This document shows positions 3,371 through 50,491 of a DNA stretch of 64,000 nt, one piece after another; position 1 is the first letter of the stretch; every line of letters begins with the position of its first letter. The position numbers and the translations under genes are program-made. Under the pieces are notes generated by a model. It was not told the DNA's origin, made no database searches, and saw only the letters and a program-made list of their open reading frames with translations. This DNA comes from Eucommia ulmoides (Eukaryota > Streptophyta > Magnoliopsida > Garryales > Eucommiaceae), in assembly GCA_016647705.1 (NCBI GenBank), contig CM028326.1, positions 16,989,901-17,053,900 on the forward strand, written 5' to 3'.

Positions 3371-5664
3371 CAAATCATCACTTAGATTCCCAAAATAAAA
3401 TGTGTTAAAATACTACAAACAGTCACTAATCTCTAACTATAGTTTGCTATAGTTATTTGAGTTTGATAATTGTGTTACAATTATATATAGAACATATCAA
3501 AAGCTACTATTGCACAACGAGCTAGAACGGAACGTGAGAGATTAAATCGTCTAACGATGTGTCCTGCAAATGGTCAATCATCTATGACTGCAAATCCACA
3601 AGCACCCATGGTTGTGGACATTTTCCAGAATCAAACTACTACATTAATGGTGGATTTCGAAATGAGAGGTACTATTCATGAAGAATCTATAGTGCAAGAT
3701 GAACAGGTATGCTTTTCTCTCTGTGTTTCGAACAAAATGAATCAATAAATCGCTTAAATTCCAAAAAAAATTGTGTTAAACTACTAAAAACAATCACTAA
3801 TATCTAACTATAGTTTTCTATAGTTATTTTAGTTCAATCAATAATTGTATTACAATTATATATTAAAGATATGAAAAGCTGCTATTGCACAATGAGTAAG
3901 AAGGGAACGTGAGAGATTAAATCGTCAGATGATGTGTCCTGCAATTGGTCCAAATATGACTGCAAATCCACAAGTACCCATGGTCCAAGGCGCTTTCCAG
4001 AATCAAACTACTATACCAGTGGTAGATATTGAAATGAGATGTGCTGTTGATAAAGAATCTATAGTGCAAGATGAACATGTGTGTTTTTCTCATGGTGTTT
4101 CTAAGAAAATGAATCAAAATATCACTTAAATTCCAAAAACACATGTGTTAAACTACTGAAAAATATCACTAATCTCTAACTATAGTGTTTTACATTTATT
4201 TTAGTTCAATTGATAATTGTATTACAATTATATATAGAAAATATCAAAAGCTGCTATTGCACAACGAGCGAGAAGGGAATGTGAGAGATTAAATCATCGA
4301 ACGACGTGTCTTGCAAATGGTCCATCTATGACTGCAAATCCACAAGCACCAATAAACCAAGACGTCTTCTAGAATCAAACTACTACACCAATGGTGGATG
4401 CTAAAACAAGAGGTGCTATTGATGAAGAATCTATTGTGCAAGATGAACAGGTGTGCTTTTCTCATTCATTGTGTTTCCAAGAAAATGAATCAATAAATCA
4501 CTTCAATTCCAAAAAGAATTTTTGTTACACTACCAAAACATTCACTACTCTTTAACCATCGTTTCCTATAGTTGTTTTATTTCAATTGATAATTGTATGA
4601 AAATTACATATAGAATATATCAAGAGCTACTATTGCATAATGAGCGAGAAGGGAACGTGAGAGATTAAATCATCGGACAATGTGTCTTGCAAATGGTCCA
4701 TCTATGACTGCAAATCCACAAGCACCCATTGTTGTCGACATCTTCCAGAATCAAATTACTACACCAATGATGGATAATGAAACAAGAGGTGCTATCGATG
4801 AAGAATCTATTGTGCAAGATGAACAGGTGTGCTTTTCTCATTCATTGTGTTTCTAAGAAAATGAATCAATAAATCACTTCAATTCCGAAAAGAATTTTTG
4901 TTACACTACTAAAACATTCACTACTCTTTAACTATCGTTTCCTATAGTTGTTTTATTTCAATTGATAATTGTATGACAATTAAATATAGAACATATCAGG
5001 AGCTACTATTGCACAACGAGCGAGAAGGGAACGTGAGAGATTAAATCGTCGGATGATGTGTCCTGAAAATGGTCCATTTATGACTATAAATCCACAAGCA
5101 CCCATGGTTGTCGACGTCTTCCAGAATCAAACTACTACACCAATGGTGGATACCGAAATGAGATGTGTTATTGATATAAATTTACCTTCTGAGGCCACTA
5201 TTGATGAAAAATCTATAGTGCAATATGAACAGGTATGATTTTCTCATTGTGTTTTAAGAAAATGAATCAAAACATTACTTAAATTCCAAAAAGAAAATGT
5301 GTAACTACTAAAAACAATCACTAATCTCTAATTATAGTTTGTTACAGTTATTTTGGTTTAATTGATAATTGTATTAGAATTATGTATAGAAGATATCATA
5401 AGTTACTATTGCACAACAAGCAAGAAGAGAACGTGAAAGATCAAATCGTTAGATCACGTGTCCTGCTAATGGTCCATCTATGACTGCAAATCCACTAGCA
5501 CCCGCGGTTGTGGAATTCGTTAACAATCAAACTATTCCGGCTATAGAGGGTCCACGAAATATTGATGAAGCTTTCTATGCTGAATCAAACTTAAATTCTA
5601 CTCGCAATCTCTGTGAAGAATCCAGAGTGGAAATTGAACCACCTATTTTATTTGAACGTATATG
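3371..5664 (+). repeat. Six-copy tandem array of an intron plus a phase-0 exon from the Helitron gene
   Basis: A block of about 375 bp repeats six times; the landmark TATTGCACAA or a variant lies near 3,509, 3,884, 4,256, 4,632, 5,008 and 5,408. Each block holds an exon-like segment after a TATATAG-type acceptor and before CAG|GT. The inferred exons are 3,491-3,706, 3,869-4,078, 4,238-4,450, 4,614-4,826, 4,990-5,232 and 5,390 to about 5,664. The first five are 216, 210, 213, 213 and 243 nt, all multiples of three, so skipping or adding one keeps the frame. The peptide starts like KATIAQRARTERERLNRL and continues MCPANG...QAP...FQNQTTT...EESIVQDEQ. Units 1 and 5 are open; 2, 3, 4 and 6 contain stops. 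The Arg/Glu-rich start resembles the basic N-terminal tail of plant Helitron helicases. Confidence 0.75.
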
Positions 5665-5735
5665 GTAAAAAAATATCCCTTAATCATTTAGGTTGTTATG
5701 ATCAAATTAATGAATCTAATTTTTCTTTGATGTAG

Positions 5736-8700
5736 GCCAACGTCTGCAGATGAATATCTTGATGTAAGTCAAAACAATGATGACTTAGAAAATTTACTAA
5801 TCAATCATTTGAATGGTATAATTTCTAATCGTCATAGTCTCGACCAAATGGATGTTGTTTGTACTTACTGTTCAACTTTGCATTGGATGGATAAAAGATT
5901 GTCAAAATCAACCACAACGCGTCCTTTATTTGGTACATGTTGTTTACAAGGTAAAGTTAAATTACCTTTGCTAACAATACCACCTCCACACATTAAAGCG
6001 TTATTTGATGGTGGAGATGCAAAGTCAAAATCATTTCGTCGTTACATTCGAGAGTACAATGCAATAAATGCTTTTACAAGTCTCAGTGCTAAATTAGATC
6101 AAAGGGTATTTAGCGGAAGAGGTCCAAAATCATTTACTATACATGGTGAATTGCGCCATCAAACGGGATCATTGATTCCTAAACACGGACAAAATCCAAT
6201 TTACTCTTAATTGTATATTTATGATCCTGCATATGCTCATAGCGTTAGATGTCGGAGAAATCCTCATTTGAGAAGTGATGTTTTGCAAATTATTCAAGAT
6301 AGTTTGTTGCAACACAATGCCTTCACGGATAAGTTTCGTCAGGCTCACACAATTCTAAATTAGATGAATTTGAATAAGCAAACTTTGCCTGCTATTCTTC
6401 AGTACAATGCATCTACAGATCGTTGACGGTATAATTTTCCTACAACAGATAAGATAGCTGTAATATTACCGGGGGATGGAACTCAGTTTTGTGGTATGAG
6501 AGATATTGTTTTACATTTAAGGGGCGATAATGAATTAATGCAAATTAATAAATGTCATCCGGCTTATATACCGTTGCACTATGTTTTGTTGTTTCCTTTT
6601 GGTGAGCTTGGATGGGAACCCAAATTTAGACGATGGGATGCGTTAAAGGGCCAACATACAGATGGTCGATTAACTTAGATGCAATTTTATAGTTATCAAT
6701 TATTTGAAAGATCGACCGAGTATTCAACGATTCTAAGGGGTGTAAAGTTATTCCAAGAATTTTTGGTAGATGCTTGGGCTGCAACAGAGCAAAATCGGTT
6801 GAATTACTTTCGACTTAATCAATCAAATCTACGTGGTGAACTATATCAAAATCTTACCGATTTACCATTTGATGGGTTGAGACCTGATTAAATAGGTAAG
6901 CGAATAGTCTTGCCATCTTCATTTATTGGTGGTCCAAGGCATATGTTTGAAATATTTCAAGATTCAATGGCTATAACGCGGCATAACCATCATCCAGACG
7001 TTTTTCTAACTTTGACTGAAAATCCTGATTGGAATAAAGTAACTTCAACCTTATTACCGCATCAAACGCCAAGTGACCACCCAGATTTGATTGCCCATGT
7101 TTTTCAACAAACGAGGATTGCTTTGATGAAAGAGGTTGAAAACACTCAAGTTTTCGGGAAAAAGGTTGCCCATGTTTTCACAAGCTCCTTGCATGGAAAA
7201 TGGTAGATGCACAAAAAGATATCCACAGGTTTGGGCAGATGAAACAACCATGGATCAAGATGGTTATCTAATTTACTGTCGTCGTAATGATGGTAAAGTT
7301 TATACTGTTAGGGGACAAAAAGTTGGTAATAGGGATGTTGTTCCTTACAATCCATACCTTTTGAAAATGTTTGATTATCATATTAATATTGAGGTTTGCG
7401 AGGGAATTAGATGCATAAAATAAATTCACAAGTATATCTACAAAGGTGGTGATCGAGTACATTGACTTTGGGAGAAATAGATGAAATCAAACAATATCTT
7501 GATGCAAGATACATTGGACCATCAGAAGTGGCTTGGCGACTTTTTAGTTTCCCTTTACATGAAGAGATTCCAACTATTGTTCAATTGGAACTCCATCAGC
7601 CTGGAATGCATCACGTTCTTTTTAATCCTAAATAAACTATGGAAGCTATTGTTTCTAGGGCTCAGTTACAAGTATCAACTCTAACGGGTTATTTTGCCTA
7701 TTGTGCAGCACATGAAGATGCGCGTGCGTATACTTATCAGGAGTTTCCCCAACACTTTGTTTAGAATAAAAATGAAAAAGTATGGAAACCAAGACAGAGG
7801 GGATTTGCTATTGGTAGAATGAAATTTGTACCTCCTAATTCGGGTGAACGATTTTATTTGCGTCTGCTATTAACAGTTGTCTAAGGACCAAAATCGTTTA
7901 AGTGTTTACGTACAGTGAACAACTTTGAACATGCGACATTTAAGGCTGCATGTATGGCAATGAGACTCTTAGAAGATGATGGTGAATGGATACAATGTCT
8001 TTAAGAAGCGTCCATAATGAGAACTAGTCATCAGTTAAGGGGATTATTTTGTGTACTTCTTACTCAATGTTCTCCGGTAAATCCACATGAATTATGGGAT
8101 CGATTTTCAATGTATATTTGTGATGATATTCCACATAAACTTCGCACATCATTCGCAATTTCTGATCCAACTAAAGAGCAAATTAAAGATTATGGTTTGT
8201 ATCTTTTGAATCAGCCACTGCAAGAATCAGGCAAAAGTTTAATCAATTTTCCATCAATGCCACTACCGGAAGAAAATTGGAATATGGTTGTTGGAAATAG
8301 GTTAATATTGGAACACAGACAATTACAACATAATGCGCAACAATTGAATGTTGACACCAACATTAAACGCCTTAATGTTGAACAACGAGTTGCTTATGAA
8401 GCTATAACTTCCTCTGTATTTGCTAATCGAAGAACTATGTTCTTCCTTAATGGTGGTGCGGGTACTGGAAAAACGTTTCTCTATAATATAGTTGCAACAA
8501 AATGTCGTAGTCTTGGTCATATTGTTGTTGCATTCGCATCGTTTGGTATAGCATCGCTATTGTAAGAATGAGGTCGAACAATACATTCTACATTTTGTAT
8601 TCCGTTGGATATCCTGGATAATTCAGTATGTGGATTTAGTAAACAGTCGTTGTATTCCGAGTTGTTCAGGGAAACCAAACTTATCATTTGGTAAGAAGTT

Positions 8701-18048: not shown

Positions 18049-19089
18049 CTAGTAATTGTACATAAGATCAGACGAGTAAAATTCATTGCCTCTAAATGGG
18101 GAAGGCGGATAGAGAATTCCATCGTCCATAAATGGCTCCAAACAGTACGTTGGTGTGCTGTAAATGTAATTATCTGGAACAAAAGGTTCCGCCCAGAAAT
18201 TTCCTCCGTTTTCTAAAATTATATCAGCTGGCGAAATATCATTTCCGGCAAAACAGTCAGTGTCCGTCACCACCCCAGTGTCCGCGTTGGAAGATGAACA
18301 TTCAGCAGATGAAGGTTTTGGTGAAAATCGAGAGCTTTGGACAATTGGTTGATCAACATAAGGGGAATTCATAGGTGTGTCTTCTTTATCCTCGGGATTT
18401 GCACTGTGTTCACTTGAACCTGATTGAGGTTTGAACGAGGATGAACTCTGGATCAAACGTTTCTTGAGATAGCCGTGCCAATGATTCTTGATTTCGTTAT
18501 CTGTTCTTCCCGGCAAGTGGGAAGCAATCATTGACCATCTGAGAATAATTATGAAAGTTAGGGTCCGATTAATTTCTCTTTTATATCCTTACTGAGTGCC
18601 ATTTTTTTTCCTTTTCTAACATTAATCATATATTATACTTAGTTAATTAGGCTTTGGGAGTCTTGTATAAGTGTAGTAATTGAAGTACCTGTTCCCTAGT
18701 GAATCATGTAACTTGATGATGATGTCTTCTTCCTCCTTGCTGTAATTCCCTCTTCTAATGTTTGGGCGCAAGTAATTCATCCATCTTAATCTACAACTCT
18801 TGCCACACCTTGATAATCCTACAAAAAAAATTAAAAATATTGATGAGAACTTTGTAGAATTTACAAAAATAAATAAATAAATAAAATAAAATTAATCATC
18901 ATAAACTTATAGATTGAGAGGTTGTTTAATAGTAAAGTGCGTTCATGCATATCTACCTGCGTACTTGGGGAGTTGCCGCCAGTTGCAGCAGCCATATCTG
19001 CTGACATAAGCTATTAACTTCTTGTCTTCCTCGACGGTCCATGTTCCCTTCTTCACTCCTTTTTCATCAATGTGTGGAGTCCTCACCAT
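18049..19089 (-). CDS. R2R3-MYB transcription factor, subgroup 2-like
   Basis: Three exons on the minus strand: 19,089-18,957 (133 bp), 18,818-18,689 (130 bp) and 18,538-18,049 (490 bp), joined by GT-AG introns, giving 250 residues. Exons of 133 and 130 bp are the classic R2R3-MYB structure. The start is [12 protein letters not shown]2 (about residues 13-63) keeps its three Trp (GTW, CNW, LRW). R3 (about 66-114) has Tyr then two Trp and contains [20 protein letters not shown]. The acidic C-terminus contains [15 protein letters not shown], similar to the SFW-E motif of MYB subgroup 2 (the MYB13/14/15 group, linked in Arabidopsis to stress and phenylpropanoid responses). It should act in the nucleus as a DNA-binding regulator. 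No lesion is visible. The family is certain; the subgroup is an inference. Confidence 0.95.
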
Positions 19090-20645: not shown

Positions 20646-20663
20646 CACTATAACAAAAATTGA

Positions 20664-20860
20664 CTATAAAAATACTTCTGTTGGTTCACTATATGTATTG
20701 TATCATATAATTAAATATTTAAAGGACACAAAGTAGTGTTCCTATAACATTTAATTAATAATTAAATAAATTAATATCTATATATAATATAAAAGGCCAA
20801 AAAATAGTGTCATAAAAATATAAATTATATCAGGGCACAATTTTGTATCCTATTATAATT
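20664..20860. repeat. CACTA left subterminal repeats
   Basis: Motifs such as GGACACAAAGTAGTGTTCC (20,724-20,742), AATAGTGTCATA and AGGGCACAATTTTGTATCC (20,832-20,850) are short inverted repeats. They match those near the right end. CACTA transposases bind arrays of this kind. Confidence 0.7.
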
Positions 20861-20934
20861 TAATTACATATATTAAAATAAATTAATTGATATTTGCACA
20901 ATTTAACCCAAAAAAAAAAAAAAAAAAAACAATG

Positions 20935-21480
20935 GTGCCCTCTCTCCCGCTCACACATTTGGTGAAAAAGAAATGACAAGTCATTTTGGTTTTTCCCCCA
21001 CACCCACACTCTCACTCTCTTAGTCCCAGTACCCACCCCAAACCCTTTCGTTCTTCTCATTTTCCTCTCCATCGCTCTATCGCCGACAACATCGCCTTAG
21101 ACCTCTCAGCCCTCTCTCTCGATCTCAGCCCTCATTGTTGGCGGTGGTGTTTGTTTCGTCTCCTCACCGTTCTTCTTTCGACCATCACTGGTGGGAGGCC
21201 CATCGATTTGCGCAACATAGGCTCAAGGTTGTTTCGTCGAGACCTTATGCAGCTGTGCTTCATTCAAATCTAGGGTTGGACAAATTTAGGGCTGGGGGTT
21301 GTGCTTCGTTCAAATCTAGTAATTGGATGTGAGAGATTTGGTCGACAAATCTAGGGTTGGACAAATAAGATCAACAATTCTCTGGGCTAATCTCGGGGCT
21401 TCGGTAGCTGGATTTGAAAGATCAAATCAACAAATCTTAGGGCTAGTTCGTTCTCAGATTCTTCTTTTCGTTCTCAAAAG
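20935..21480 (+). other. CT-rich, 5'-UTR-like segment inside the CACTA element
   Basis: Pyrimidine-rich sequence (CACTCTCACTCTC, CCCTCTCTCTCGATCTC) gives 95- and 65-codon plus-strand frames with biased Ser/Pro/His composition. The later part repeats TCTAGGGTTGGACAAAT-type phrases (about 21,270 and 21,350). It looks like a captured or native promoter and 5' UTR, not a protein gene. It lies upstream of the captured exons in the same orientation and could drive a chimeric transcript, which is an inference. Confidence 0.4.
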
Positions 21481-21934
21481 GTAATAAATTCTCCTCTATT
21501 TTAATTGACTTTTGTAGTTTTCACGTGTCGAAAATGGTCTCAAACTAGGGATTTGAATTGGAATGTGAATTGAAAATAGTCTCAGACTAGGGCAATTGAA
21601 AAATGAAATGGGTGTATTTGTTCTCTTCAATTGTAGAAACAGGTTAAATTTCATATCTCGAATCTCTAATCAGATCTTCCTAATGTCAATGAGCAGGTTA
21701 AATGTTATTTTGTAATAAACAATCCTAATCTCTCCCTGTCAAGATATAATTGATTAAGTGTGTTTCTGTTCTGTTCTGTTGTTGTTCACGTTTCTATTTC
21801 TGTTCTGTTCTTCTGTTTTTTTTTTGTTTTTTTTTTTTCATGTTTTTGTTATTATTAGTTATTTAGTTGTGTTATTTGTTTAGTTGTTTATTTATAAATG
21901 TTTTACTAATGCATATGTAGTTCCTAATGCATAG

Positions 21935-22184
21935 CAGAATTGGAGCTGTGGTGTTGTCAAGCAAAAGAGGAGGTAATCCAAAGGAGAAACCTTTTACCTT
22001 GTTCATATATTAAATTTTTCTTTTACAGATGGATGCCTACTTCTTAGTCCGGTCTTCAATGCTTCAAATCTCTGAAGTGACCCACATTACGTCTTGCTTA
22101 TATGCTTAAGATCACCTTCTATTGCAGTATGCAGGGTTAGCCTGGGAAGAACTCAAGCACATAAGACAAGTTGTTGGATTCTAG
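21935..22184 (+). pseudogene. Captured fragment of a class XI myosin (globular tail region), two exons
   Basis: Exon 1 (21,935-21,972) translates to AELELWCCQAKEE (first codon partly from the acceptor side) and ends at GAG|GTAATC. Exon 2 (22,128-22,184) follows CTATTGCAG and gives YAGLAWEELKHIRQVVGF, then a TAG where Leu is expected. Together they match the start of the conserved globular tail (dilute/DIL region) of plant class XI myosins, and the intron position is retained. The parent protein moves organelles along actin. Only about 32 residues are present, so this is a captured genomic piece with no function as myosin. The identity comes from recognition by eye. Confidence 0.75.
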
Positions 22185-22532
22185 GTTAGTTTCTGTTGAA
22201 GTGGCTTTTCAAGAAACTATATACTTTGATCATTATTAGACCACATTCATGATATTGAATGCTCCATTTTTAAGTGTTTCAACTGAAGTAAAACGAAAAG
22301 AATTTACAATTTCATGTAGAATATTTTTTTTGCATGATCCTCTGTAGGATTGGCATGAAGGTAAGAAGGATTTCTTGAGCAAGGGCATACAATGTCCTTC
22401 ACGTGAAATTTCAAAAAAACATTAACTAAAAATAGGCAGGAGGATAGGGTAAAAGAAGGGTTGCATATCTGCCTTTATTTTTGTATTTTTTTAATTTTTC
22501 GGTTATGTGCTCATGTATTTTTGGATTTTTTT

Positions 22533-22566
<34 letters not shown>

Positions 22567-22683
22567 GGGATTTCTTGGTTATGTGCTTCATTTTAGGATT
22601 ATCCATGATGCATGTCATCTAATTTTTCACAATTCCTTTGTACTAGTCTTCCTTGGCAAGGATTGAAAGCCAGTACCAAATAG

Positions 22684-23462
22684 CAGAAGTACGACAGGAT
22701 CGGCGAAAAGAAGATGTTGACACCAATAGAGGTACTTCATCCAGCTTAAATTCCTGTACGGGTCTAGTTTCATTAGTCCAAATTCTTCATTTCAAGGTTG
22801 AAGCTCTCAACAGTTGGCTGTGACGTTCCTTGAAACATTTATCTTCGTAGGTTTTTGTTTGTCTATTATTATGTTAAGGTAGCGTTTGGTAGTATGGAAT
22901 TGAAGCCTTGAAATTGGAATTAGAAATGAATGCGAGTAAAATTTGACATTTTTACATGGGTGCATATCCAATTCCCTGAAACCATGAAACCAAGCACTAC
23001 CTTTAAAAGTGTTTTCAGTAGCTTCTCTCACGTACAGCATTACCCATCACTTCTTTGCTTAGCTAAGTTAGTTTGTCATATTGAGCTATTAACATGCTAG
23101 CGTCTTGAACAGGTTTTATGCAAATCATATCCATCAGAGTTCATCTTCTTTTTTCACCATTGCCGCTCATTACGATTTGAAGACAAGCCTGATTATTCAT
23201 ATTTGAAGTAGCCTTTTAGAGACTTGTTTATTCGTTAAGGTAAATTTATTATACCTTACTTTTTCTCTATGTAAATATATTTGTTTTGCACGTCGTTGGT
23301 CCTTTTCCCTGTTTTTGAAGAGTTCATGCTTCAAGAATATGTATATATATGTGGTGGCACTCAGTTCTTTACTGCATTATAACTGTAGGCTATCAATTCG
23401 ACTATGTCTTTGATTGGACTATATTGAAGTATCCTCAAATTGGGGCAACTTCAAGATGACGG
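22684..23462 (+). pseudogene. Captured fragment of a casein kinase 1-like protein kinase, three exons
   Basis: Exon 22,684-22,731 (after AAATAG, before GTACTT) gives QKYDRIGEKKMLTPIE. Exon 23,113-23,239 (after GAACAG, before GTAAAT) gives [10 protein letters not shown], then [18 protein letters not shown], a stop, and FRDLFIR. Exon 23,389-23,462 (after CTGTAG, before GTAAGA) gives [18 protein letters not shown]. This is the C-lobe end of the plant CK1/CKL kinase domain, with exon phases joining correctly. The ATP site and catalytic loop are absent. In-frame stops (near 23,209 and 23,236, and after TSR in the last exon) show decay. A further exon may follow near 23,567. The parent enzyme is a Ser/Thr kinase; this copy cannot be. 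Confidence 0.88.
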
Positions 23463-23694
23463 GTAAGAACATGTAATATGTATTGTATGAAGAATATCAT
23501 TTATCAGTATTAGTTTCATCCAGTTGTTAAAAGGATGATAATTCATTTGGTGGCTTTCGTTTTCAGAATCCGACTGGAATCCAGGAACATTTGCAAAAAA
23601 AACAGGAAGAACGTTAGTTACTTCTCTTTGAAGGAAAAAAATACATGTAGTTTGCTTTTCTTCGTCACTTTTTCAGGTTTCCAATGGAGGAATG

Positions 23695-23797
23695 AACCCT
23701 GGTTGTTTACATAAATTTTCGGGATCGTCCAAAATAGGTAACTAATAAACCCTGGTTGTTTACATAAATTTTCGAGATCGTCCAAAACAGGTAACTC
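23695..23797. repeat. 53 bp tandem duplication inside the CACTA element
   Basis: AACCCTGGTTGTTTACATAA starts at 23,695 and again at 23,748. Both copies continue through ATTTTCGRGATCGTCCAAAA with single-base differences. It appears to be a local duplication after capture. Confidence 0.85.
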
Positions 23798-24143
23798 CAT
23801 TTTTCCAAATGCACAAAAAACTGAAGTTGTGTACACTAGAGCTTTTGGTCTGAACAGATCAAAAGTTGGATCAGTCGAGAAAGGAAGCGGAGTTAAGAGT
23901 TAGGGTTTGACATTCTAAGTACTCGAGACATCCTTATATTTTGAAACTAATAATTTCCCGCAGTGTCATATGTTTATTTCACTATTTGATTGGTGAATGA
24001 CTTGTTACCTTCTGACAGAATGCAGTTTAGCCATATATCCTGCTCCTGCATGTCAATTCATTGTTATGGTCTTTTTTTTTTTTTTTTTTTTTTTAAATTG
24101 TTTTAGTTTTCATATCCATATTTTCCAACAATCTTCATCATTG

Positions 24144-24299
24144 AGCATTCTACAACTTGAGAATTATGCAAAAATTGAAGAAGCTAAAGTTGAGGAGCTC
24201 ATCAAAGCCATCAAAGCTGTTGCAGGTTCAAGTGCAAAGGTTATTGTCAATGGGGCTGCTGTTAGGGAGATGGCGCTGCATTATTATGAGCGATACAAG
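24144..24299 (+). pseudogene. Captured exon of chaperonin subunit CCT-theta (CCT8)
   Basis: The frame reads LQLENYAKIEEAKVEELIKA, then VAGSSAKVIVNGAAVREMAL and HYYERYK, and ends at a possible donor (ACAA|GTGTGA). This matches part of the apical domain region of the theta subunit of the eukaryotic cytosolic chaperonin TRiC/CCT. About 50 of some 545 residues are present. The frame runs on into intron sequence (DCSYLSCQ...), as expected for a captured genomic exon. The parent complex folds actin and tubulin; this piece alone cannot. A long T run at 24,071-24,094 precedes it. Confidence 0.85.
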
Positions 24300-24829
24300 T
24301 GTGATTGCTCATACTTATCTTGCCAATATTATTTCTATCCCCTTATTGTGTATGCTACTTCCCATTTAAATTTTAGTGCTTTAGAATGTGAATTTCACAC
24401 TTTCTGTTTTTTACTGTTCCATATCACCTATTGTTCTGTAGGAAATGATGAGACTGACTTATTTTATGTTTGATCAGTCGAGAAAGAAGGTAGAGTATTG
24501 TATGGAAAATGCATTTAACACATATTTAGTATGTATATTACTTTTATACTTGAACCTTGTTTTTATTTACGAATGGTGGCTTAGATTTTAAAAGGAAGCA
24601 GCGACTCATGATGAGTATAATTTTGTGTATCTTTGGGGTTTTTAATTCTCCCATTTTAATGCAAACATTTGAGTTCTTTATGTATTTTATATTGTGAGGA
24701 ATTTTTAGTTTTATTGTTTGGATTTAGAGTATATTGATATTTTAAAATAATTTTAAATTATATAAAATAAAAAAATAAAAAAATCGATAATTTTTGGGAT
24801 ACTAAAAATTTTCCTTAAATGTTTGGTCT

Positions 24830-25126
24830 CTTTGACAATTTCGTGACACATTCTTGTGTCCTAATAGAGATTTTTCAGAACACTTTGTAGTGTCCTAATA
24901 TATATAATTTAAAAAATATAAAATCCTATAGAGGCAATATATGATGTCCTAATAGATATCTTATAGAACACTTATTATTGCATTAACAAGTTCAAACAAT
25001 AGGGGCTATATATAGTGTCTTATAACCTATTAGGGCGGCTACCTATGGGGAACCAGTCCAAGTGTCCCAAAAAGCCCAAGTGTCGCAATAGGGGATCTAT
25101 CGTGACACTTTTTTGTGTCCCGATCG
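24830..25126. repeat. CACTA right subterminal repeats
   Basis: Successive short palindrome-like motifs include GTGACACATTCTTGTGTCC (24,842-24,860), GAACACTTTGTAGTGTCC (24,878-24,895) and GTGACACTTTTTTGTGTCC (25,102-25,120). GTGTCTTATA, GTGTCCCAA and GTGTCGCAA words lie between them. They mirror the left end. Confidence 0.75.
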
Positions 25127-25144
25127 ATCAATTTTGTTGTAGTG

Positions 25145-28217: not shown

Positions 28218-28545
28218 CACTAAACAATATTTACTTTTGAGGACACCTAAATGTGTCCTAACATATATTATTTTGGGACGCATTAAGTATTGGGACAATT
28301 AAAAATGTTGTCCTATAAAAGGCTATTTCAATAACTTATTAAGACAATTATTTTTTTGTCGCATTAATTTATATTTATTAAGATAATATTATGTGCCCTA
28401 ATAAATCTTTAGAGCATTTGTACAGTAAATGCTTTCCGGACCTAAATACGTCTCAATAAATCTTTAATAGGACAAAACGATGCATCCTTTAAACTATTGA
28501 TAAATTATTTATCCAACAATTTTATGTGTCCCAAAAGCAAATTTT
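28218..28545 (+). mobile_element. End of a second CACTA element
   Basis: CACTAAACAATATTTAC starts at 28,218. It is followed by GAGGACACCTAAATGTGTCC (28,240-28,259) and further diverged motifs (GGGACAATTAAAAATGTTGTCC, AGACAATTATTTTTTTGTCG, GACCTAAATACGTCTC) down to about 28,535. The layout matches the subterminal region of the 20.6-25.1 kb element, but the sequence differs. No matching right end with TAGTG was found, so it is truncated. Confidence 0.6.
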
Positions 28546-38317: not shown

Positions 38318-38403
38318 CAATATCTCATTCTCAGGGGGAGATAGAAAAGTATTTATTGCTATTAAAATATCAAATGAGTTGTCATCATAAAAAATGGAGA
38401 GAT
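38318..38403 (+). repeat. Copy of the Sirevirus pre-LTR (polypurine) segment upstream of the 5' LTR
   Basis: CAATATCTCATTCTCAGGGG and the following GAGATAGAAAAGTATTTATT match 47,584-47,668, the internal sequence just before the 3' LTR. A normal 5' LTR should be preceded by host DNA. Similarity stops abruptly upstream of about 38,318. Confidence 0.8.
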
Positions 38404-40669
38404 TGTTAGCCTAAGCGATTTCAATCATAGGATTCCTAGATTAAAGTGATTTTGACGATAACACACACATTTGACGTTTTAAATATACTAAAGATGATTT
38501 TGAATATAGAATATCCAAATACCATCAAAACAAATCATGAAAGCGAAATCAAGTCGAAAATGTATAAAAATGTATGATTTACATTAAAGCAATTTTTCAT
38601 TTTGACAATACTTACAAGATATTGAACTCGGAATTCTATAGGACACATACACAACGTATGTGTTCTTAATTGTGATATATTGATCTTATCATATCTAATA
38701 TACTTATATATCACAATATGAAGTATGCGTTTGATCATTACATGTTATATCGGAAAAAATACCTATTGATCATAATTATGCGAAATTGGAATTTTATATT
38801 CTTAATATGATCATTGAGTTTTTGAATCATATAAACATCTTGATAATAATTGTTACATGTTTTATAAAGTGTTTATAATAATAAAAGATCATAAACTAAG
38901 ACCAAAAACCCAAAATAGACGAAAACTTCATGCCGCAAGAACTGCAGCATAAGTAGTTGACTACTTATGTTGAAAGTGGTCGACTACTTGTGCTGAAAGT
39001 AGTCGACTACTTTCAAGCATAATACTTTCTTTCTCCTGCTCTGTTTTCGGCTTCACGTTTTGGCATCGTATGCTTGTTCTAATTAATATATGATGATTCA
39101 TATGCCTTATGATGATTATATAACATGTTTTCATCATTCAATTTGATCAATACAATGTTGAATTAAAAAGAAATTGATCAAAATATTTTGAAACATTTTA
39201 GAACTCAAAATGCAGAATTTTGTCATGAACTCAAATTTGGATTTGCATATCATATTTTGTTCGGAACGTTCAAATCATGTCACGAGATGTTAGTTTAATA
39301 TGTCTACATGATATATGCATGATCAATTGATATGTTTATCAATTCATTTATGATTAATTGACAAATTGACTCATAAGGTATGAAAATTCTGTTTTCATCA
39401 TGCTAAATGATTCTAAGTATTCAAATACCTTAAATACTTGTATGTACTTAATTGGTTTGTATAATTATATAATATACATTATACACTACTTATATAAATG
39501 ATCATATTATTATCCTATAAAAATACAAGTATATTGTTTTGAAATCAAGTGGGAATACAAAGATACCATTTTGAATTGATGGTAAGGTAGCTCAATAAAT
39601 GCTAGCCCATACCTTGTCTTCCACTAGTATGAAAGGTATCATATCTTGATTATACTAGCTGCTTTCTTTAATGAAAGGAGCCTAGTATTAAATTATTTCA
39701 CACCATCTTTACATAAACTCCATCATGCTATGTCTACAAATATCATGATCCCTTACACTCTATTATATACATTGTATGTAAGAGATAATGGCTGTATGTT
39801 TCCACTACCTCAACAACATGAATGGACTATGGGTCTTATGCATTTAATTACACTATCTTGCATTAATTGAGGTTTGAAAAAAAGAAAAAGATTCTTGACA
39901 AATCTACAGAGATAATGGAAGATGAGTCTATGCAATTTGAATGTTGAAATTTGAAGAAGATTTTCAAATAGACATTTGCTCTCAAGTTCTTCAAATGAGA
40001 TATCCTCCTACATTCTCTATATCTACAAAAAAGGAGAAAAGATTGCTGGAGGAAATAACTCAATCAAAGTATCAATCAAGTGAACCTCAAAGATCAAAGT
40101 GATACTACCAAAGGCTTCCAAACTAAAATCTATCCAACAACACTTATACTCTTCTTGATTCATATTTCTTGAGTGTTTGTTATATTTACATCACGCACAT
40201 AGATTCTTGAGTTTTATATCTTGTGAGTGTTGAAGTTTCATTCTGTGAGACGGTGATATTTTCATTGTAAATCTTGAGTAAGGGTTTTACTCAAGAGGAG
40301 AGATTTATGAGTGGAATATATTCACTCTATATTGTAAAGACTTAAGATACGTACTTCTTAAGCGGTGACTTAAACGGTTTGTTCTTCACTCGTAAGAAGA
40401 TCAAAGATAGTGAAATCCTCGAAGGAGCTCAAGGTAGTGGACTAGGCAAAGGGTGTTTACCGAACCACTATAAAATACCGGTGTCAATCTCTCTAACTCT
40501 ACTCTTTATATTTTCGCATATATTTGTATTTGTGATTATTACTCTTATTTGAATATTCGTTGTGCACTTAATCACATTAACACTTAGTTTATATTGAGTA
40601 GTTTTTAAATAACGAATTATTTGCCGAAACCCAATTCTCCCTCCTCTTGGCTAATTCTTGGGCCTTTAA
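38404..40669 (+). mobile_element. Sirevirus 5' LTR
   Basis: It begins TGTTAGCCTAAGCGATTTC and ends GGGCCTTTAA just before the primer-binding site (the canonical CA end has changed). It is 2,266 bp. It contains three copies of a 16 bp palindrome (38,951-39,012), repeated almost exactly in the 3' LTR. Short ORFs on both strands occur in both LTRs at equivalent places (38,535-38,738 and 47,799-48,002 minus; 39,863-40,063 and 49,106-49,405 minus) and are not genes. Confidence 0.88.
38951..39012. repeat. Three 16-bp palindromes in the 5' LTR
   Basis: AAGTAGTTGACTACTT (38,951-38,966), AAGTGGTCGACTACTT (38,974-38,989) and AAGTAGTCGACTACTT (38,997-39,012). The last is a perfect palindrome; the others have one change. 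Spacings are 7 bp between copies. Confidence 0.92.
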
Positions 40670-40670
40670 T

Positions 40671-40682
40671 TGGCATCAGAGC
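40671..40682 (+). other. Sirevirus primer-binding site
   Basis: TGGCATCAGAGC, one base from the TGGTATCAGAGC complement of initiator tRNA-Met, lies 1 bp after the 5' LTR. Confidence 0.88.
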
Positions 40683-40723
40683 AACACTTGTTTAATAAGG
40701 CTTAAAATCTTAGCAAATCGATC

Positions 40724-42331
40724 ATGGCAAATTTTGTTACAACTATCCTTCCCGAAGGTCAATCCATGCATAGACCTCCTTTGTTTAATGGTAACAATTA
40801 TATTTTTTGGAAAGCTAGAATGATAGCATTTTTACAAGCTACAAATTATGAAGCTTGGAAAGTTATTAAAAATGGTTCACATACTTCTATTAAAACTAAT
40901 CTTGATGGATCTACTATACTTAAGGTAGAATCGGAATTTGATGACAGAGATACCAAATTAATTTTTATAAATGCCCAAGCTATTAACCTTCTTTATTGTG
41001 GTTTAGATGTTCATGAATATAATAGGATTTCTGGATGCTCATCGGCTAAGGAGATTTGGGATACTCTTATGATTACTCATGAGGGTATAAACCAAGTCAA
41101 GGAATCCAAGATCGACATTCTCGTGCACCAATACGAACTATTCAAGATGGAGGATGGAGAATTGATCATGGAGATGTATACTCGCTTTACAAATATTTAT
41201 AACAACTTGAATGCACTCAGAAAGCCATACTCAATGTCCGAACGAGTACGAAAGATCCTTAGAGCTCTTCCCAAGGCATGGGATCCAAAGGCAACGGCCA
41301 TCTCGGAATCCAAAGATCTAAACAAATATTCTATTGATGAACTCATTGGTAACTTGACCACTCATAAGCCGTCACTCAAAGGCTATGAAGAAAAAGATAG
41401 AAACTGAAATAAAGGAATAACCTTAAAAGCTATTCATGACAATGATGATGATAATGATAGCATCGGGAGTGAACCCGAAGGTGAAATGGCTATCTTGGCA
41501 AGACGATTCAATCGGCTCAACCGGAGATTCTTCAAGCAGAAGAAATTCAACAAAACCGACATAAGCAAAGTTGAATGCTATAAATGTCACAAGTTCGGTC
41601 ACTACAAAACCGAATGTCCTCAACTCAAGGAGGATCAAAAAAAGCCAAAGAAACATCATTACAAAAATAAGAAAAGAGCTTTTTAAAAAACTTGGGATGA
41701 CACCGACTCAAGTGACTCTGAAAGTGAAAGTAGTGGCGAGGAGGCCACCTTACTTGCACTCATGGCAAAAGAAGATGAGGTAACTCCTACTTCCGAAACT
41801 TGATCATTAGATGAATATGATGAACTACTTGATACATATGAAGAATTAAAAGATGAGTTTAAAAATTATTTTTCTAAAATGATAAATCTTAACAAAACAA
41901 TAGCTACTCTTTCAAAAGAATTGGAAACAACAAAAACTGAAATTATTTCTTTAAAACAAGAAAATAATTCTTTAAAGAAATGTGATCTTGAAAAGAAAAA
42001 TATTTCTTTAAAAAATCAAGTTGATGATTTAACCAAAACAGTCCACAAGTTTACTAAAGGTGAAAATAATTTTAAACTTCTCTTGGGAAGTCAAAAGGGT
42101 GTTTTCAACAAAGCCGGTTTGGGTTTGCATCAGCATAAGAAACAAAAGAAATTTCAATTTTTTTTCTCTAAAACCAAAATGTTTATAAAATGTTTTTATT
42201 GTAACAAAGTTGGTCACGCCGTCGATGTTTGTAATGAAAGAAAACTGAAAAATACAAATACAAAGGTAAGAGAAATTTGGGTACCAAAGGGAACGTTGGT
42301 TCCAAAGACTAACCCTCCTGGACCTAAGTAA
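40724..42331 (+). pseudogene. Sirevirus gag, interrupted
   Basis: Gag forms the particle core and binds RNA. The frame starts MANFVTTILPEGQSM 42 bp after the primer site. The N-terminal copia gag domain runs to about 41,400 (LFNGNNYIFWKARM near the start). A zinc knuckle CYKCHKFGHYKTEC (about 41,577-41,618) follows, then an acidic Ser/Asp-rich stretch, a coiled-coil-like segment (about 41,880-42,045) and a second knuckle CFYCNKVGHAVDVC (42,193-42,234). Both keep CX2CX4HX4C. Two knuckles and a coiled coil fit the Sirevirus lineage. TGA at 41,405, TAA at 41,684 and a stop near 41,801 break the frame; it ends at 42,329-42,331. Confidence 0.85.
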
Positions 42332-42399
42332 AACGGGTACCATTTAGGAATCATTTGAGGTGCTCCTTGCAGGTTAGTTTTAAAGCAAACATAAGCAAG

Positions 42400-43786
42400 G
42401 ACAAATGACTCCTAGATAGCGGTTGCTCACGGCACATGACAGGCGATAAAAATCAATTTACATCTTTGACACCTAAAGATGGCGGACATGTGACGTTTGA
42501 AGACAACTCTAAGGGTAAAATCATGGGTATTGGTAAAGTTGGTAAAAATGATTTTATTATTGAAAATGTTTTACTTGTTGAAGGCTTAAAATATAATCTT
42601 ATAAGTATAAGCCAACTATGTGATAACGGTTTTAAAGTAACTTTTCTTGAAAATCAATGAGTCGTCAAAGAAGATGATGATCACAAAGTTTTATTTGTTG
42701 CATCACGTTTTGAAAATATTTATACATGTTCATTTGATGATCTATCTTCACAAAATGTTTCATGCCTAAATGCTTTAACCGAAAAGAGTTGGTTATGGCA
42801 TAGATGTCTAGGACATGCTAGCATGGAACTTATTTCAAACTTATCTAAAAATAATCTTATACGTGGATTACCAAATGCAAAATTTGTTAAGGATAAAATA
42901 TGTGATGCATGCCAACTTGGTAAACAAGTTAAAAGTTCTTTTTAAGAATAAGAAGTTTATTTCTACTACTAAACCATTGGAACTTTTGCATCTTGACTTA
43001 TTTGGTCTTAATCCCGTTGCTAGTTTAGGTGTCAAACTTTATGCATTTGTGATTGTTGATGATTATTCTAGATATACATGGGTTCTGCTACTTGCTAAGA
43101 AAAGTGATGTTGCTTACGTGTTTGTTAAGTTTTGTAAGCGTGTTGAAAATGAGAAAGGTTTTAGCATTAATAATATCCGAAGCAATAGAGGAAGAGAATT
43201 CTAAAATGATGAGATTGAAATTTTTTGTGATGAACAAGGTTACGGACACAATTTTTCAGCCCCTAGAACACCTCAACAAAATGACGTTGTTGAGAGGAAA
43301 AATCGCTCTTTACAAGAGATGGCTCAGACTATGTTAAACGAGTATTCTTCACCGCAATACTTTTGGGCGGAAGCCGTAAGTACGGCATATTACGTTTTGA
43401 ATCATGTTTCAATCCGCAGAGGCTTAAATAAAACTCTATATGAGTTATGGAATGGTAAAACCCCTATTATCTCATACTTTAAAGTTTTCAGTTGCAAGTG
43501 TTTTATTCTTAATGATAAAGAAAATCTTTCTAAATTTGATGCTAAATCCGATGAAGGTATTTTTCTTGGTTATTCAACTAATAGTAAAGCTTACAGAGTA
43601 TATAATAAACGTACACTTGTAGTTGAAGAATCAATGGATGTTGTTTTTGAGGAATCTAACCCCTTTTCGCCAAAAAAAGATATTGATGAAGAAAATACAG
43701 ATTTGATAGAAAAATCAACGGAAGAAGCTGAAAACGCTGATTTAAGGCCTTTTGATAATGACTTAATGGAAGTACAACCTTCCTAG
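42400..43786 (+). pseudogene. Sirevirus protease and integrase, interrupted
   Basis: The protease site LDSGCSRHMTG (about 42,412-42,444) keeps Asp-Ser-Gly. A GAG pre-integrase segment follows, then the integrase zinc domain with WLWHRCLGHAS (42,793-42,825) and CDACQLGKQ (42,901-42,927), which retains His and Cys ligands. The catalytic core has LHLDLFG, then IRSNRGREF (about 43,176-43,202), where the second catalytic Asp is Asn, then QQNDVVERKNR (about 43,276-43,308), which keeps the Glu. A stop near 42,658, a frameshift near 42,945, stop 43,202-43,204 and a further frameshift near 43,315 break the ORF. The last part runs to TAG at 43,784. The enzyme cannot work as it stands. Confidence 0.85.
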
Positions 43787-43879
43787 AACACGTTACCTAA
43801 GGCGTGGAAGAAGGTCAACATTCATCAATCTAATCAAATCATTGGTGACATTGAACATGGAGTAAGTACTAGATCTTCT

Positions 43880-45413
43880 TTGAGAAACTATGTTAACAAT
43901 TTTGCTTTCCTATCTCAAATTGAACCTAAAAATGTTTTTGAAGCTATTGATGATGAATCTTGGATTCTTACAATGCAAGATCAGTTAAATCAATTTGAGA
44001 GGAATAACGTTTGGTCTCTAGTACCGAGACTTAATGATCATCCCGTAAGTGGAACAAAATGGATTTTTCGAAATAAAAAGGATGAGTCGGGTGTTGTTAT
44101 TAGAAATAAAGCAAGATTGGTAGCACAAGGTTATAATCAAGAAGAAGAGATAGATTATAATGAAACATATGCACCGGTCGCTAAAACTTTTTCAAATGGA
44201 TGTTAAAAGTGCATTTTTAAATGGTTTCATTTCCGAAGAAGTTTATGTTGAAAACCTCCCAGTTTTGAAGATGAAAAATTTTCAAATCATGTTTTCAAAC
44301 TATCCAAAGCACTTTATGGTCTCAAATAAGCTCCTAGAGCTTGATATGAGAGGTTAAGTGGATTTCTCTTAGAAAAGGGTTTTAAACGTGGTTTAACCGA
44401 TATAACTTTATTTATTAAAGAAGTTGAAAATAATATCTTACTAGTTCAAATCTATGTTGATGATATCATTTTCGGAGCTACTAATGAGATCTTGTGCCAA
44501 AAATTTGCTAAGCTTATGCAGGAAGAATTCGAGATGAGTATGATGGGAGAATTAACATTCTTTCACGGATTACATATTAAGCAATCAATGGATGACATAT
44601 TTATAAATGAAGCAAAGTATACTAAAGACTTAATAAAAAAAATAATGGATGGAAAACTCAAAGGAATATAGTACACCTATGAGTACTTCAATCAAATTGG
44701 ATGCCGATGAAAGTGGTAAGAAGGTAAATCAGAAGGAATACCGAGGTATGATTGGTAGTCTCCTTTATCTTAAGGCAAGTAGACCAGATATCATGTTTAA
44801 TGTGTGTCTATGTGCTCGTTTTCAATCTTGTCCTAAAGAATCATATTTAACTGCCGTTAAACGTATTTTTCGATATTTGCTTGTTACATGTGATTTAGGC
44901 TTATGGTATCCAAAAAATGATTGTTTTGACATGCTTAGCTATTCTGACACTGATTTTTCCAGTTGTAAAGTAGAGCGTAAAAGCACTAGTGGTAGTTATC
45001 ACTTTTTAGGACACGCATTGGTTTCTTGGTCAAGCAAAAAACAAAAATCGGTTGCATTATCCACGGTCGAAACCGAATATGTCGCGGCTGGAAATTGTTG
45101 TACTCAAGTGCTATATATGAAACAAGAATTGGGAGATTTCGGTAATAATGTTGGTTGTGTTCCAATCTTATGTGATAACACTAGCACCATTTGTTTGAGT
45201 AAGAATCCTACTCAACATTCACGAACTAAGCACATTGAAATAAGACACCACTTCATTCATGACCACATTCAAAAAGGCGATATCACATTGGAATTCATTG
45301 ACACTAATAATCAACTAGTCGATATCTATACTAAGCCTCTCGGGAAAAAACAATTTTCAAAAATATTACGTGGCTTAGGCATGATAAGACAAAAAGATAC
45401 TTTGAAAGAATGA
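43880..45413 (+). pseudogene. Sirevirus reverse transcriptase and RNase H, interrupted
   Basis: RT starts with EPKNVFEAIDDESW, followed by GTKWIFRNKKDESG and ARLVAQGYNQ (to about 44,175). Between APVA and FQMDVKSAFLNG (44,173-44,224) a short block of the RT fingers is missing, and the frame shifts. The catalytic YVDDIIFGA is present at about 44,454-44,480. Stops occur near 44,327 and 44,355. RNase H is open from 44,649 to 45,413. It includes YRGMIGSLLYLKASRPDIMF, KSTSGSYHFLG, SWSSKKQKSVALSTVETEY, then a DIYTKPL end and a normal stop. RNase H is the best-preserved domain. Confidence 0.88.
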
Positions 45414-46021
45414 AAACTTTCAAAATTTCTACTTGAGAGTAAATATGCTATAAATTGTCAAAAACTACTTCAATCTTGATTTAAAATGGTTTTTTTACTG
45501 ATATATATTTTTGATGTGTTTAAAATGTTTTTAAAATGATTTCAAAGCCATTTTTTTCAAAAGTGATCAAAAATCTAATTTTGATAGACTTGAATCCCCG
45601 AGGCAAAAACGAAATTTGGTTATGAGTAATATTAATCAATTCTAAATTAATTAGGATTGATATATACTTCAAAAAACCATACAAAGGCTAAATATTGAAT
45701 AAATCAATCCAATTAGAGCATAGAACAGAAATGGATCAAGCCGATTACCTGCTGAAATGTTACAATAGAAGTAGTCGACTACTTTCCAGATAAGTAGTCG
45801 ACTACTTATCCTGACGGGTGAAAAACAGTGCATACGAATTTATTGCAAATCTTAAGAGTTATGGTTTATTTCATCCGAATTCCTTGCCTATATAATCAAA
45901 TATTCTCACATAATTTCATTCCTACCCTTAAAGAAAAGGCAAACCTTGATAAAACTTGAGAGTGATTGAGAAATTGTCCAAACCCTAGGTTGAATTCTTG
46001 TGTTCTTGAGAAATTCAAGCA
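45414..46021. other. Sirevirus pol-to-env intergenic region with two palindromes
   Basis: About 600 bp, non-coding. Two perfect copies of AAGTAGTCGACTACTT lie at 45,769-45,784 and 45,792-45,807, separated by 7 bp. They are the same palindrome that is in both LTRs. Confidence 0.85.
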
Positions 46022-47276
46022 ATGGCACCAAGGAGATCAAGGAGAAATCAGGAACAAGAGGTAGCCTCGGTTATTCTATTCGACAACTATCATTTCTCAC
46101 GCCCCGAACATGAGAAACAATTTCTCTCCGATTTCTCTCACCGTAAGGTAATCCCCGGTCGTCCTGTTGATTTTGAATCTCTTTCAAATCACAATCTTCA
46201 TACACGTACCTATTTGAATCATGCTGGTTGGGATTATTTTGTTGGTATTTCATCACCACTATATTCTGTTCTTGTCCAAATGTTCTATGAATCTTGTTTA
46301 TGAACGTGGTATTTACACTTCCTGTGTGAATGGTGTTGAAATCTCTTTTGGTAATAGCCTTCTTGCTAATATATTTCATTTACCTAGAGGAGAGATTAAA
46401 CCCAAGATCAATAACAATTGGTTGTCAATCCACTTGAATTTCAATCAATGGAATATCTTGGCTACTCTTTGTGGACCACATTTTTGTCCCGGTAATCGTA
46501 ATTCCGTAGCCGATTTACCACTTGAATTTCGTTTAATTCACTCTATAATCGACTACTCTATTGTGCCTAGAGCCGAAAGTATATCTCATATCACTTTCTT
46601 CGATCTTTTCCTTCTAAAGAGCTTTCTTGACAACACTAACATTGATCTTGCATTTGTCATCGGAAAGTATACGTTGGCTCAAAAGAACAAAACCAAAGGC
46701 TCTTTGCCTTATGGAATCGCTATCACCGCCATTTTCAATCATTTCCAAGTCCCGCTCCAAAATGAAATTCCATTTTCTATCATTACTCGTCATGAAATTC
46801 TTGACCATTCAACCGTGTTGAAAATGGGTTATCAATTTGTCAATGGTCGTTTTTGAAAAATGAATAGACAAGTTGATCATGAAGTTGTTGGTTTCGCACT
46901 CACAAATGTTCCGGTGGAACTAAGGCATGCCGATGCTTATCAAGGAGGTGTTGAATTTGTGGAAGAAAAAGAAGAAGAAGAAGAGGGAGACAACAAAATG
47001 GAGGACGTACCACCTCAAACCAGTGGTACTTTGACTTTTGAAGTTGGAGAAGGTTTCAATGCTCCGAACTTCAATTATAATGATTTTGTCACAAGATTTG
47101 AAGGGAGAATGGATGATATGACTAATCGCTTTGAACAGAGAATGGATGATCTTTCAAACCGTTTTGACACCCATGCACATCATGTGGATGAGCGGTTTGA
47201 TACTCTCATAGGATCATTCACACAATTCACAAGTCACTTCTACATACGCTATCCACCTCCACCACCTCAAGACTAG
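46022..47276 (+). pseudogene. Sirevirus envelope-like ORF (plant transposon protein domain), interrupted
   Basis: It starts MAPRRSRRNQEQEVASVILF. A frameshift near 46,285-46,300 moves to the frame with YERGIYTSCVNG. That frame continues through LPRGEIKPKINNNW and IDYSIVPRAESIS to a TGA at 46,854-46,856, then resumes in the same frame to TAG at 47,274. The middle matches the plant retroelement domain of env-like ORFs in Sirevirus and Athila elements. The last third is acidic (EEKEEEEEGD) and then shows a repeated RMDDMTNRFEQ / RMDDLSNRFDT coiled-coil-like pattern and a Pro-rich end. I see no clear signal peptide or membrane anchor. An envelope function for such ORFs has not been shown. Confidence 0.75.
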
Positions 47277-47589
47277 TTTACCATCCCTTTTTGATGTGAC
47301 AAAGGGGGAGAAAACTAGATTTGATGTTAGAGATTAAGTACTAGTTAGTTAGGTTTGATGTTAGAAATTTGGTGTTAGAGATTTAGTACTAGTTATGTTT
47401 GCATTTGTATCTTGTGTTGTTTATGACTATGATTATGTATGGTTATTATGACTATAACTATGATTATGTATGGTTATTATGACTATGACTATGATTATGT
47501 TATTTATGGTCATTATGTTATAAACTACAATAACCTTGAGAGAATGAATAATTAAACTTTATTGATAAAATTATTTCAAAACCAATCTC

Positions 47590-47668
47590 ATTCTCAGGGG
47601 GAGATACAAAAAGTATTTATTGTTATTAAAACATCAAATGAGTTGTTATCATAAAAAAATGGATAGAT
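47590..47668 (+). other. Sirevirus polypurine tracts
   Basis: AGGGGGAGA (47,596-47,604) and, next to the LTR, AAAAAAATGGATAGAT (47,653-47,668). More than one purine tract before the 3' LTR is a known Sirevirus feature. Confidence 0.7.
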
Positions 47669-49912: not shown

Positions 49913-50491
49913 TGGGTATCATAATCTATCTCCCTTAAATAAATTTCATCCCCGAAATTTCATGCAAAATAATAATAATTCATAATCGCTCCAAATATTT
50001 TTTTCCAACATGTGTATATATATATATACCCATATGAAGTTCTTCAAGTTTTACTATTTGTTTGTATTTGTAATATATAAATTTAGTTGTTTATTTTAGT
50101 ACTAGAGTTTTTATACATATAGGCATGCTTATTTGAGAATCAAACAAGTGGAAAAAATCAAACAAATAATAAATAAAAAAAGAAAAAGAAAAAAAGTTAC
50201 CTTAAGTCCAAGTTGTTCAATCTTCCAAAAAAGGATAGAGAGAGAGAGAGTTTGAAAAATGGAGAAATGGAAATGGAAATGGAAATGAGCAAATTTCTAT
50301 CAACATAATTTAAGAATCGGTTGTTCATTGCCTTCATTATGAAGACTTCTTTCCTTCTTTTGCCAAGTGTTATCATGTGTCAATTTCTTATCAAGACTTT
50401 GACAACTAATCAAATAGATTTACAAGCCCCCCCCCCCCCCCACACACTTAATCTTTAAATATCAATTGAAGCCCAATTATTACAATTAACA

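Follow-up and report, generated by a model that had tools for sequence, protein, structure and literature searches.

A probable Pack-CACTA element in Eucommia ulmoides carrying pieces of myosin XI, casein kinase 1 and CCT-theta genes, with two donor genes and partial relatives in the same genome

How do pieces of unrelated host genes come to lie together, in one orientation, between the ends of a single transposon? This question is raised by positions 20,646–25,144 (+) of a 64,000-nucleotide stretch of the Eucommia ulmoides genome (C2:16,989,901–17,053,900; hereafter the window), where exons of a class XI myosin gene, a casein kinase 1 (CK1) gene and a CCT-theta gene follow one another between CACTA ends. 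The region is very probably a non-autonomous Pack-CACTA element, with ends from a multi-copy CACTA family and an interior of host DNA gained stepwise. Features given below lie on the plus strand unless marked (−).

An original prediction had taken the CACTA ends at 20,646 and 25,144 as belonging to one element, and this is upheld by the inverted ends, by subterminal palindromes and by a sister copy (L009) at another locus. In the alignment of the two ends, the 5′ terminal inverted repeat (TIR; 20,646–20,663), CACTATAACAAAAATTGA at 20,646, pairs with the 3′ TIR (25,128–25,144, −), CACTACAACAAAATTGA at 25,144, with one mismatch and one gap. TIRs starting with CACTA, the mark of CACTA membership, are found in the window copy and in the sister copies, whose ends mostly read CACTACAACAAAAA. 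The ends alone are weak evidence, since another CACTA..TAGTG pair in the window has an equal ungapped score, and the case for an element is carried by the subterminal palindromes and, above all, by the relatives. GACAC-n-GTGTC palindromes (≤1 mismatch) lie near both ends, one in the 5′ end and three in the 3′ end, these four comparing with 0.0165 expected per simple shuffle of the ends; five more occur elsewhere in the window. Perfect 3-bp target site duplications (TSDs) flank seven of the nine sister copies with both ends placed (L009, L010, L011, L016, L025, L026 and L042), that of L009 being TAA/TAA. Several points weigh against this assignment. Among the 914 CACTA..TAGTG pairs scored in the window, one other ties the element's best ungapped score; the triplets flanking the window copy, ATA/AGA, are alike at two of three bases and thus form an imperfect TSD; L013 and L043 lack a TSD, one end of each being altered or uncertain; and L026 and L025 have one mutated end apiece. 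The tied pair and the imperfect TSD, together with the shortness of the inverted ends, would also suit pseudogene remnants flanked by chance CACTA motifs, but this explanation is exceedingly improbable given that sister L009, which lies at a different locus, matches the window copy in ends and cargo and is flanked by a perfect TSD. As had been predicted, no transposase was found in the element when its six frames were compared with Pfam (E ≤ 1), a search that returned only sub-threshold matches to Cpn60_TCP1 and to a coiled coil. This is as expected for a non-autonomous element, the transposase gene being a defining feature only of autonomous CACTA members. A candidate second CACTA remnant at 28,240 was rejected, its alignment not being above shuffles. 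The palindrome GGACACCTAAATGTGTCC at 28,241–28,258 resembles the subterminal motif of the element, and its surroundings do not align above shuffles.

The blocks between these ends had been attributed to three unrelated host genes, all in the same orientation, and each matches myosin XI, CK1 or CCT-theta respectively in protein searches and is in sense (+). As a control, the three plus-strand frames were read through against PDB (E ≤ 1), and only CK1-superfamily kinases, CCT-theta and Myosin-17 were returned. The blocks lie where they had been placed, with corrected limits: CK1-derived DNA is longer than proposed (22,345–23,639, in two parts at 22,345–22,466 and 22,536–23,639), and CCT-derived DNA covers 23,897–24,438. 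In the myosin block, a GT-AG intron separates two exons that share a frame, the first at 21,928–21,972 (start approximate, GT donor) and the second at 22,128–22,184 (AG acceptor), ending in an in-frame TAG. Its sole PDB match at E ≤ 10 is Myosin-17 (7kfl, E = 1.9e-10), a class XI plant myosin. For the CK1 block, the best PDB match is the CK1-like 3sv0 (E = 9.5e-29), and the protein database gave 6363 matches at E ≤ 0.001; most of the 120 listed are plant CK1-like proteins at 85–89% identity, and the five top-ranked by E-value among these listed matches are at 70–82%. Three CK1 exons share one frame across two GT-AG introns, namely 22,647–22,731, recovered by read-through and holding one stop, 23,113–23,239 with two stops, and 23,389–23,462 with one stop near its end (GATSR*R), so that the pieces hold four in-frame stops. 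A probable further exon lies at 23,567–23,617 (NPGTFAKKTGR, where the parent gene has NPGTSAERPGR). What had looked like a fourth gene (SSLARIESQYQ...) was discarded, as the right frame obtained by read-through showed it to be a wrong-frame reading of the first CK1 exon. The CCT-theta exon (24,156–24,298) is open and contains a 9-bp duplication. The ten best of its block's 13 PDB matches are CCT-theta (best E = 1.2e-4), and 4 of 116 database candidates reach E ≤ 0.001, all of them PF00118 at 76–78% identity: two T-complex protein 1 subunit theta (Orobanche), one hypothetical protein (Camellia) and one unnamed. Pfam searches of the short pieces gave nothing beyond one sub-threshold coiled coil.

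Introns and splice sites had been described as retained. This holds for the introns, and GT-AG sites are present where the two myosin exons meet and at the junctions of CK1 exons one to three. It fails at two sites: the donor of the fourth CK1 exon has changed from AG/GTACTT in the parent to AG/TTACTT in the window copy, and the CCT acceptor has changed from the parental CAG to CAA. The latter is lost in two of the eight element copies read (window and L020) and kept in the other six and in the parent.

Donor genes were sought in the host genome (947 Mb, 391 contigs). In the search with the element, scoring covered 40 of 2450 first-look candidates and yielded 54 match rows, and copy counts are therefore lower bounds; in a further search, 24 of 24 candidates were scored, and stretches were fetched from both searches. 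The CK1 parent lies at C14:53.60 Mb (L024) and covers residues 75–458 of a 458-aa reference with its exons in order, residues 55–122 being found in L012 and those before 55 lying outside the fetched stretch or not being seen. The CCT-theta parent at C6:45.41 Mb (L045) covers residues 246–439 of a 550-aa reference in order, with one additional weak out-of-order match (35% identity). The CK1-derived DNA corresponds to C14:53,599,790–53,601,785, of which about 765 bp between the two parts have been replaced by 69 bp of T-rich sequence, and the CCT-derived DNA corresponds to the gene at C6:45.407 Mb, the alignment extending through introns with identity at 461 of 542 positions. For both genes the match between element and parent runs through introns at 84–87%, and the predicted capture at the DNA level is supported because the introns match those of the C14 CK1 gene and the C6 CCT-theta gene. 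The feature that characterizes a Pack-CACTA, host gene DNA between the ends with parents elsewhere in the genome, is thus found for CK1 and CCT-theta. The expectation of near-identical parents for all three blocks was only partly realized: two parents were placed, and the myosin cargo was recognized by its protein match. That no myosin parent was placed weighs against the reading given here, as does the finding that CCT-theta residues 440–550 were not seen in the stretch fetched around L045.

The relatives show how variable the interior of this family is. Among 18 sequences compared, eight of which served as queries, the ends are common and the interiors differ. The 5′ end is common wherever it was placed, over about 340 bp in most copies, 174 bp in L042 and 147 bp in L010; the corresponding terminal and subterminal region of the window copy (20,646–20,887, with a palindromic motif at 20,725 and a looser one at 20,834) is shorter than the 340-bp version. 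At the 3′ end, about 600 bp are common, L022 showing none and L020 and L016 only part; in the window this part spans 24,439–25,144 (core 24,525–25,144), with palindromic motifs at 24,845, 24,879 and 25,104. In sister L009, on C15, the pieces of all three genes are present together with a clean TSD, indicating that the cargo has moved along with the element. By protein search, none of the three genes was found in L011, L013 and L016; L010 holds CCT and a portion of CK1, CCT is present in L014 and in L017 (same place as L020), L015 (same place as L022) holds eight myosin residues and L018 (same place as L021) one myosin stretch. By DNA, the segment with the first myosin exon (21,859–22,047) is also present in L021, L023 and L026, where it is joined directly to the 3′ part. 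The CCT exon is whole in seven other elements (L009, L010, L014, L020 as L017, L040, L041 and L042) and partial in L043, and L044 gave a DNA match only. Apart from the parent, the only sequences found with CK1 DNA are the window copy, L009 and, for part of it, L010. A Pfam search of the plus frames of the L026, L042 and L011 interiors gave one sub-threshold match, Cytidylyltransferase-like, in L042 (E = 0.07). The CT-rich segment upstream of the genes (20,931–21,482, GC 0.469, with a GT following near its end), which had been likened to a 5′ untranslated region, is indeed present, but it is family-borne, occurring also in L011, L013 and L016. Sister L009 further contains an insert of about 2.1 kb within its CK1 piece (oriented 3,766–5,911), with ends TGTTG...CAACA and TTCTC on both sides, like a solo long terminal repeat.

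These partial forms suggest an order of capture. Immediately before the common 3′ part, L021, L023 and L026 retain the last 58 bp of the CCT block and L025 retains 83 bp, in each case without the exon; L011 has no such scar. On the simplest reading of these sequences, the 3′ part that received the myosin segment came from an element carrying CCT, so that the CCT piece would have been in the family before the myosin segment joined this 3′ part. CK1 would have been captured last, because, beyond the parent, no sequence other than the window copy, L009 and L010 (in part) was found to contain it. Thereafter, the element with its three gene pieces transposed as a whole on at least one occasion, as seen in the C15 sister. 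At the right edge of CK1, the sequence becomes within a few bases a segment known from other CCT-type elements (23,645–23,896; L014/L019 and L020). Within this segment, a 53-bp tandem duplication (94% identity) lies at 23,691–23,796.

As for mechanism, we lean, by a modest degree of confidence, toward composite-element fusion: two neighbouring elements would lose their inner ends, and the outer ends with the host DNA between them would move as one composite element. For its movement, the element would depend on a transposase supplied from elsewhere. Fusion of neighbouring insertions is described as a model in a study of Arabidopsis and maize (PMC8903248). The CCT block is flanked by two copies of a 24-bp element repeat, at 23,865–23,888 and, with four mismatches to the left copy, at 24,468–24,491. 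The repeat (≤4 mismatches) is present on both sides of the block in five of eight CCT copies tested, occurs once in all six tested elements without the CCT exon, and was not found in either parent stretch; L016, L022, L043 and L044 were left out of this test. In the window, the two CCT flanks align at a score of 34, compared with a maximum of 25 in 1000 shuffles.

The same direct repeat can be explained by interrupted gap repair, in which, after excision, the repair strand copies host gene DNA as filler and re-enters the element template slightly upstream, leaving a short direct repeat. The capture model of Rubin and Levy is reportedly one of gap repair. A 3-bp overlap (ATG) at the junction between CK1 and the CCT-type segment, as the alignment is read, and the T-rich filler at the internal deletion of the CK1 piece also speak for this route, and Rubin and Levy are cited for the capture mechanism in a study of Chenopodium elements (PMC8978399). 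Gap repair is accordingly a possible origin of the pieces in the same element, although a less probable one than fusion, which is simpler because relatives hold the halves separately, the myosin segment in L021, L023 and L026 and the CCT type in L014 and L020. Other observations sit uneasily with the order and mechanism favoured here. The flanking repeat fits interrupted gap repair as well as fusion, and these data do not separate the two; L040, L041 and L042 carry CCT without the repeat, both flanking stretches being missing there; 21 of the 54 genome match rows begin at q3786–3787, where the CCT scar ends, and show no scar; and myosin could be an earlier acquisition of a different lineage. 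In addition, the noncoding CCT distance from the parent (0.092) is not larger than the CK1 distance, and the order of capture is therefore based on the scar and not on distance. It may tentatively be proposed that multi-gene capture by a CACTA transposon, through repeated neighbour fusion, has left in this family an almost complete fossil series, in which each gene is bounded by the remnant of a second element and every step can be read and dated; we hold this stronger form to be somewhat doubtful.

The Kimura two-parameter (K2P) distances of the two CK1 DNA pieces are 0.081 and 0.089 between window and parent, 0.094 and 0.084 between the C15 copy and the parent, and 0.078 and 0.088 between window and C15 copy. 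Because these are alike, capture of CK1 and spread of the element appear to have been close in time. The grass substitution rate is 1.3e-8 per site per year. At this rate, which may not be that of this plant, the CK1 divergence corresponds to about 3 million years. Over the 91 codons compared, the CK1 piece shows 4 silent changes relative to its parent, along with 6 replacements and 3 stops; a fourth stop lies just outside these codons, and the stop of the first CK1 exon (22,647–22,731) is also present in L009. The CCT piece differs from its parent by 5 silent changes and 6 replacements in 46 codons, and its coding divergence (0.077) is similar to the noncoding one. As a gauge of methylation-type decay, C>T plus G>A changes were set against their reverse, giving 19:5 in the window CCT block, 26:25 in the window CK1 block and 35:22 in the C15 CK1 block, with no uniform excess. 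From their sequences, the captured exons seem to be decaying passengers under no constraint, and a protein function is unlikely.

It had also been suggested that order and orientation would allow one chimeric transcript, or small RNAs acting on the three parent genes. All pieces are indeed sense, the myosin junction and CK1 exons one to three have kept their GT-AG sites, and in soybean the exons of Tgm-Express1 are spliced into host transcripts (PMC1947982). The agreement in orientation carries no signal, since three pieces would all point the same way by chance in 1 of 4 cases, and the proposed transcript is weakened by the stops, of which CK1 has four and myosin one, by loss of the CCT acceptor in the window copy and L020, by the lost donor of the fourth CK1 exon and by the similarity of coding and noncoding CCT divergence. 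That the region yields such products and was retained for them is hence very unlikely.

Three parents in a 4.5-kb CACTA element had been regarded as unusual, a view that does not stand against known systems. Tgm-Express1 (Glycine max, wp allele) is a 5.7-kb element of the same superfamily and of similar size, which holds intronic and exonic pieces of five unrelated host genes (UP, CDC2, FPK, M and CS), lies in an F3H intron and has exons shown to be spliced (PMC1947982). The Eucommia element carries other genes and lies 1.56 kb upstream of a MYB-like gene. In maize, it is common for a Pack-TYPE element to contain DNA of more than one locus, most of all for Pack-CACTAs, and the Pack-CACTAs of Arabidopsis and maize resemble the present element in being non-autonomous, in their coding DNA from more than one locus and in the proposed fusion of neighbouring insertions (PMC8903248). 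In contrast to these, the Eucommia element has relatives of partial form, some with CCT but neither CK1 nor myosin and some with myosin and a CCT scar, alongside the form with all three genes. Host gene pieces also occur inside CACTA elements of Chenopodium, where, in the part of the source available, they derive from a single gene each and lie upstream of the TAD domain in elements with their own coding sequence (PMC8978399). A literature search gave no CACTA element with these three genes named in titles or abstract openings, which is no proof of absence. Multi-gene capture by CACTA elements is thus already known, and what is new here is the set of partial relatives together with two identified donor genes. 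Much of what is held about the uptake of host DNA by CACTA elements still derives from models, and the donor genes, the sister with a clean TSD and the partial forms allow the fusion and gap-repair models to be compared at base resolution. For genome annotation, the CK1-, CCT- and myosin-like exons at this locus should be treated as transposon cargo.

The MYB-like gene next to the element (18,049–19,089, −) is of R2R3 type by reading, with a Pfam Myb domain in its last exon. Since its ATG at 19,089 is 1,557 bp from the 5′ end of the element, the element lies upstream of it. Elsewhere in the window, a PIF1-like helicase piece at 8,005–8,565 is perhaps a Helitron remnant, and a Copia-type retrotransposon occupies 38,322–49,921, with repeats at 38,322–40,678 and 47,585–49,921 that are 92.6% alike, gag at 40,706 and an extra open reading frame at 46,218–46,856 with a sub-threshold Pfam match to Transposase_32.

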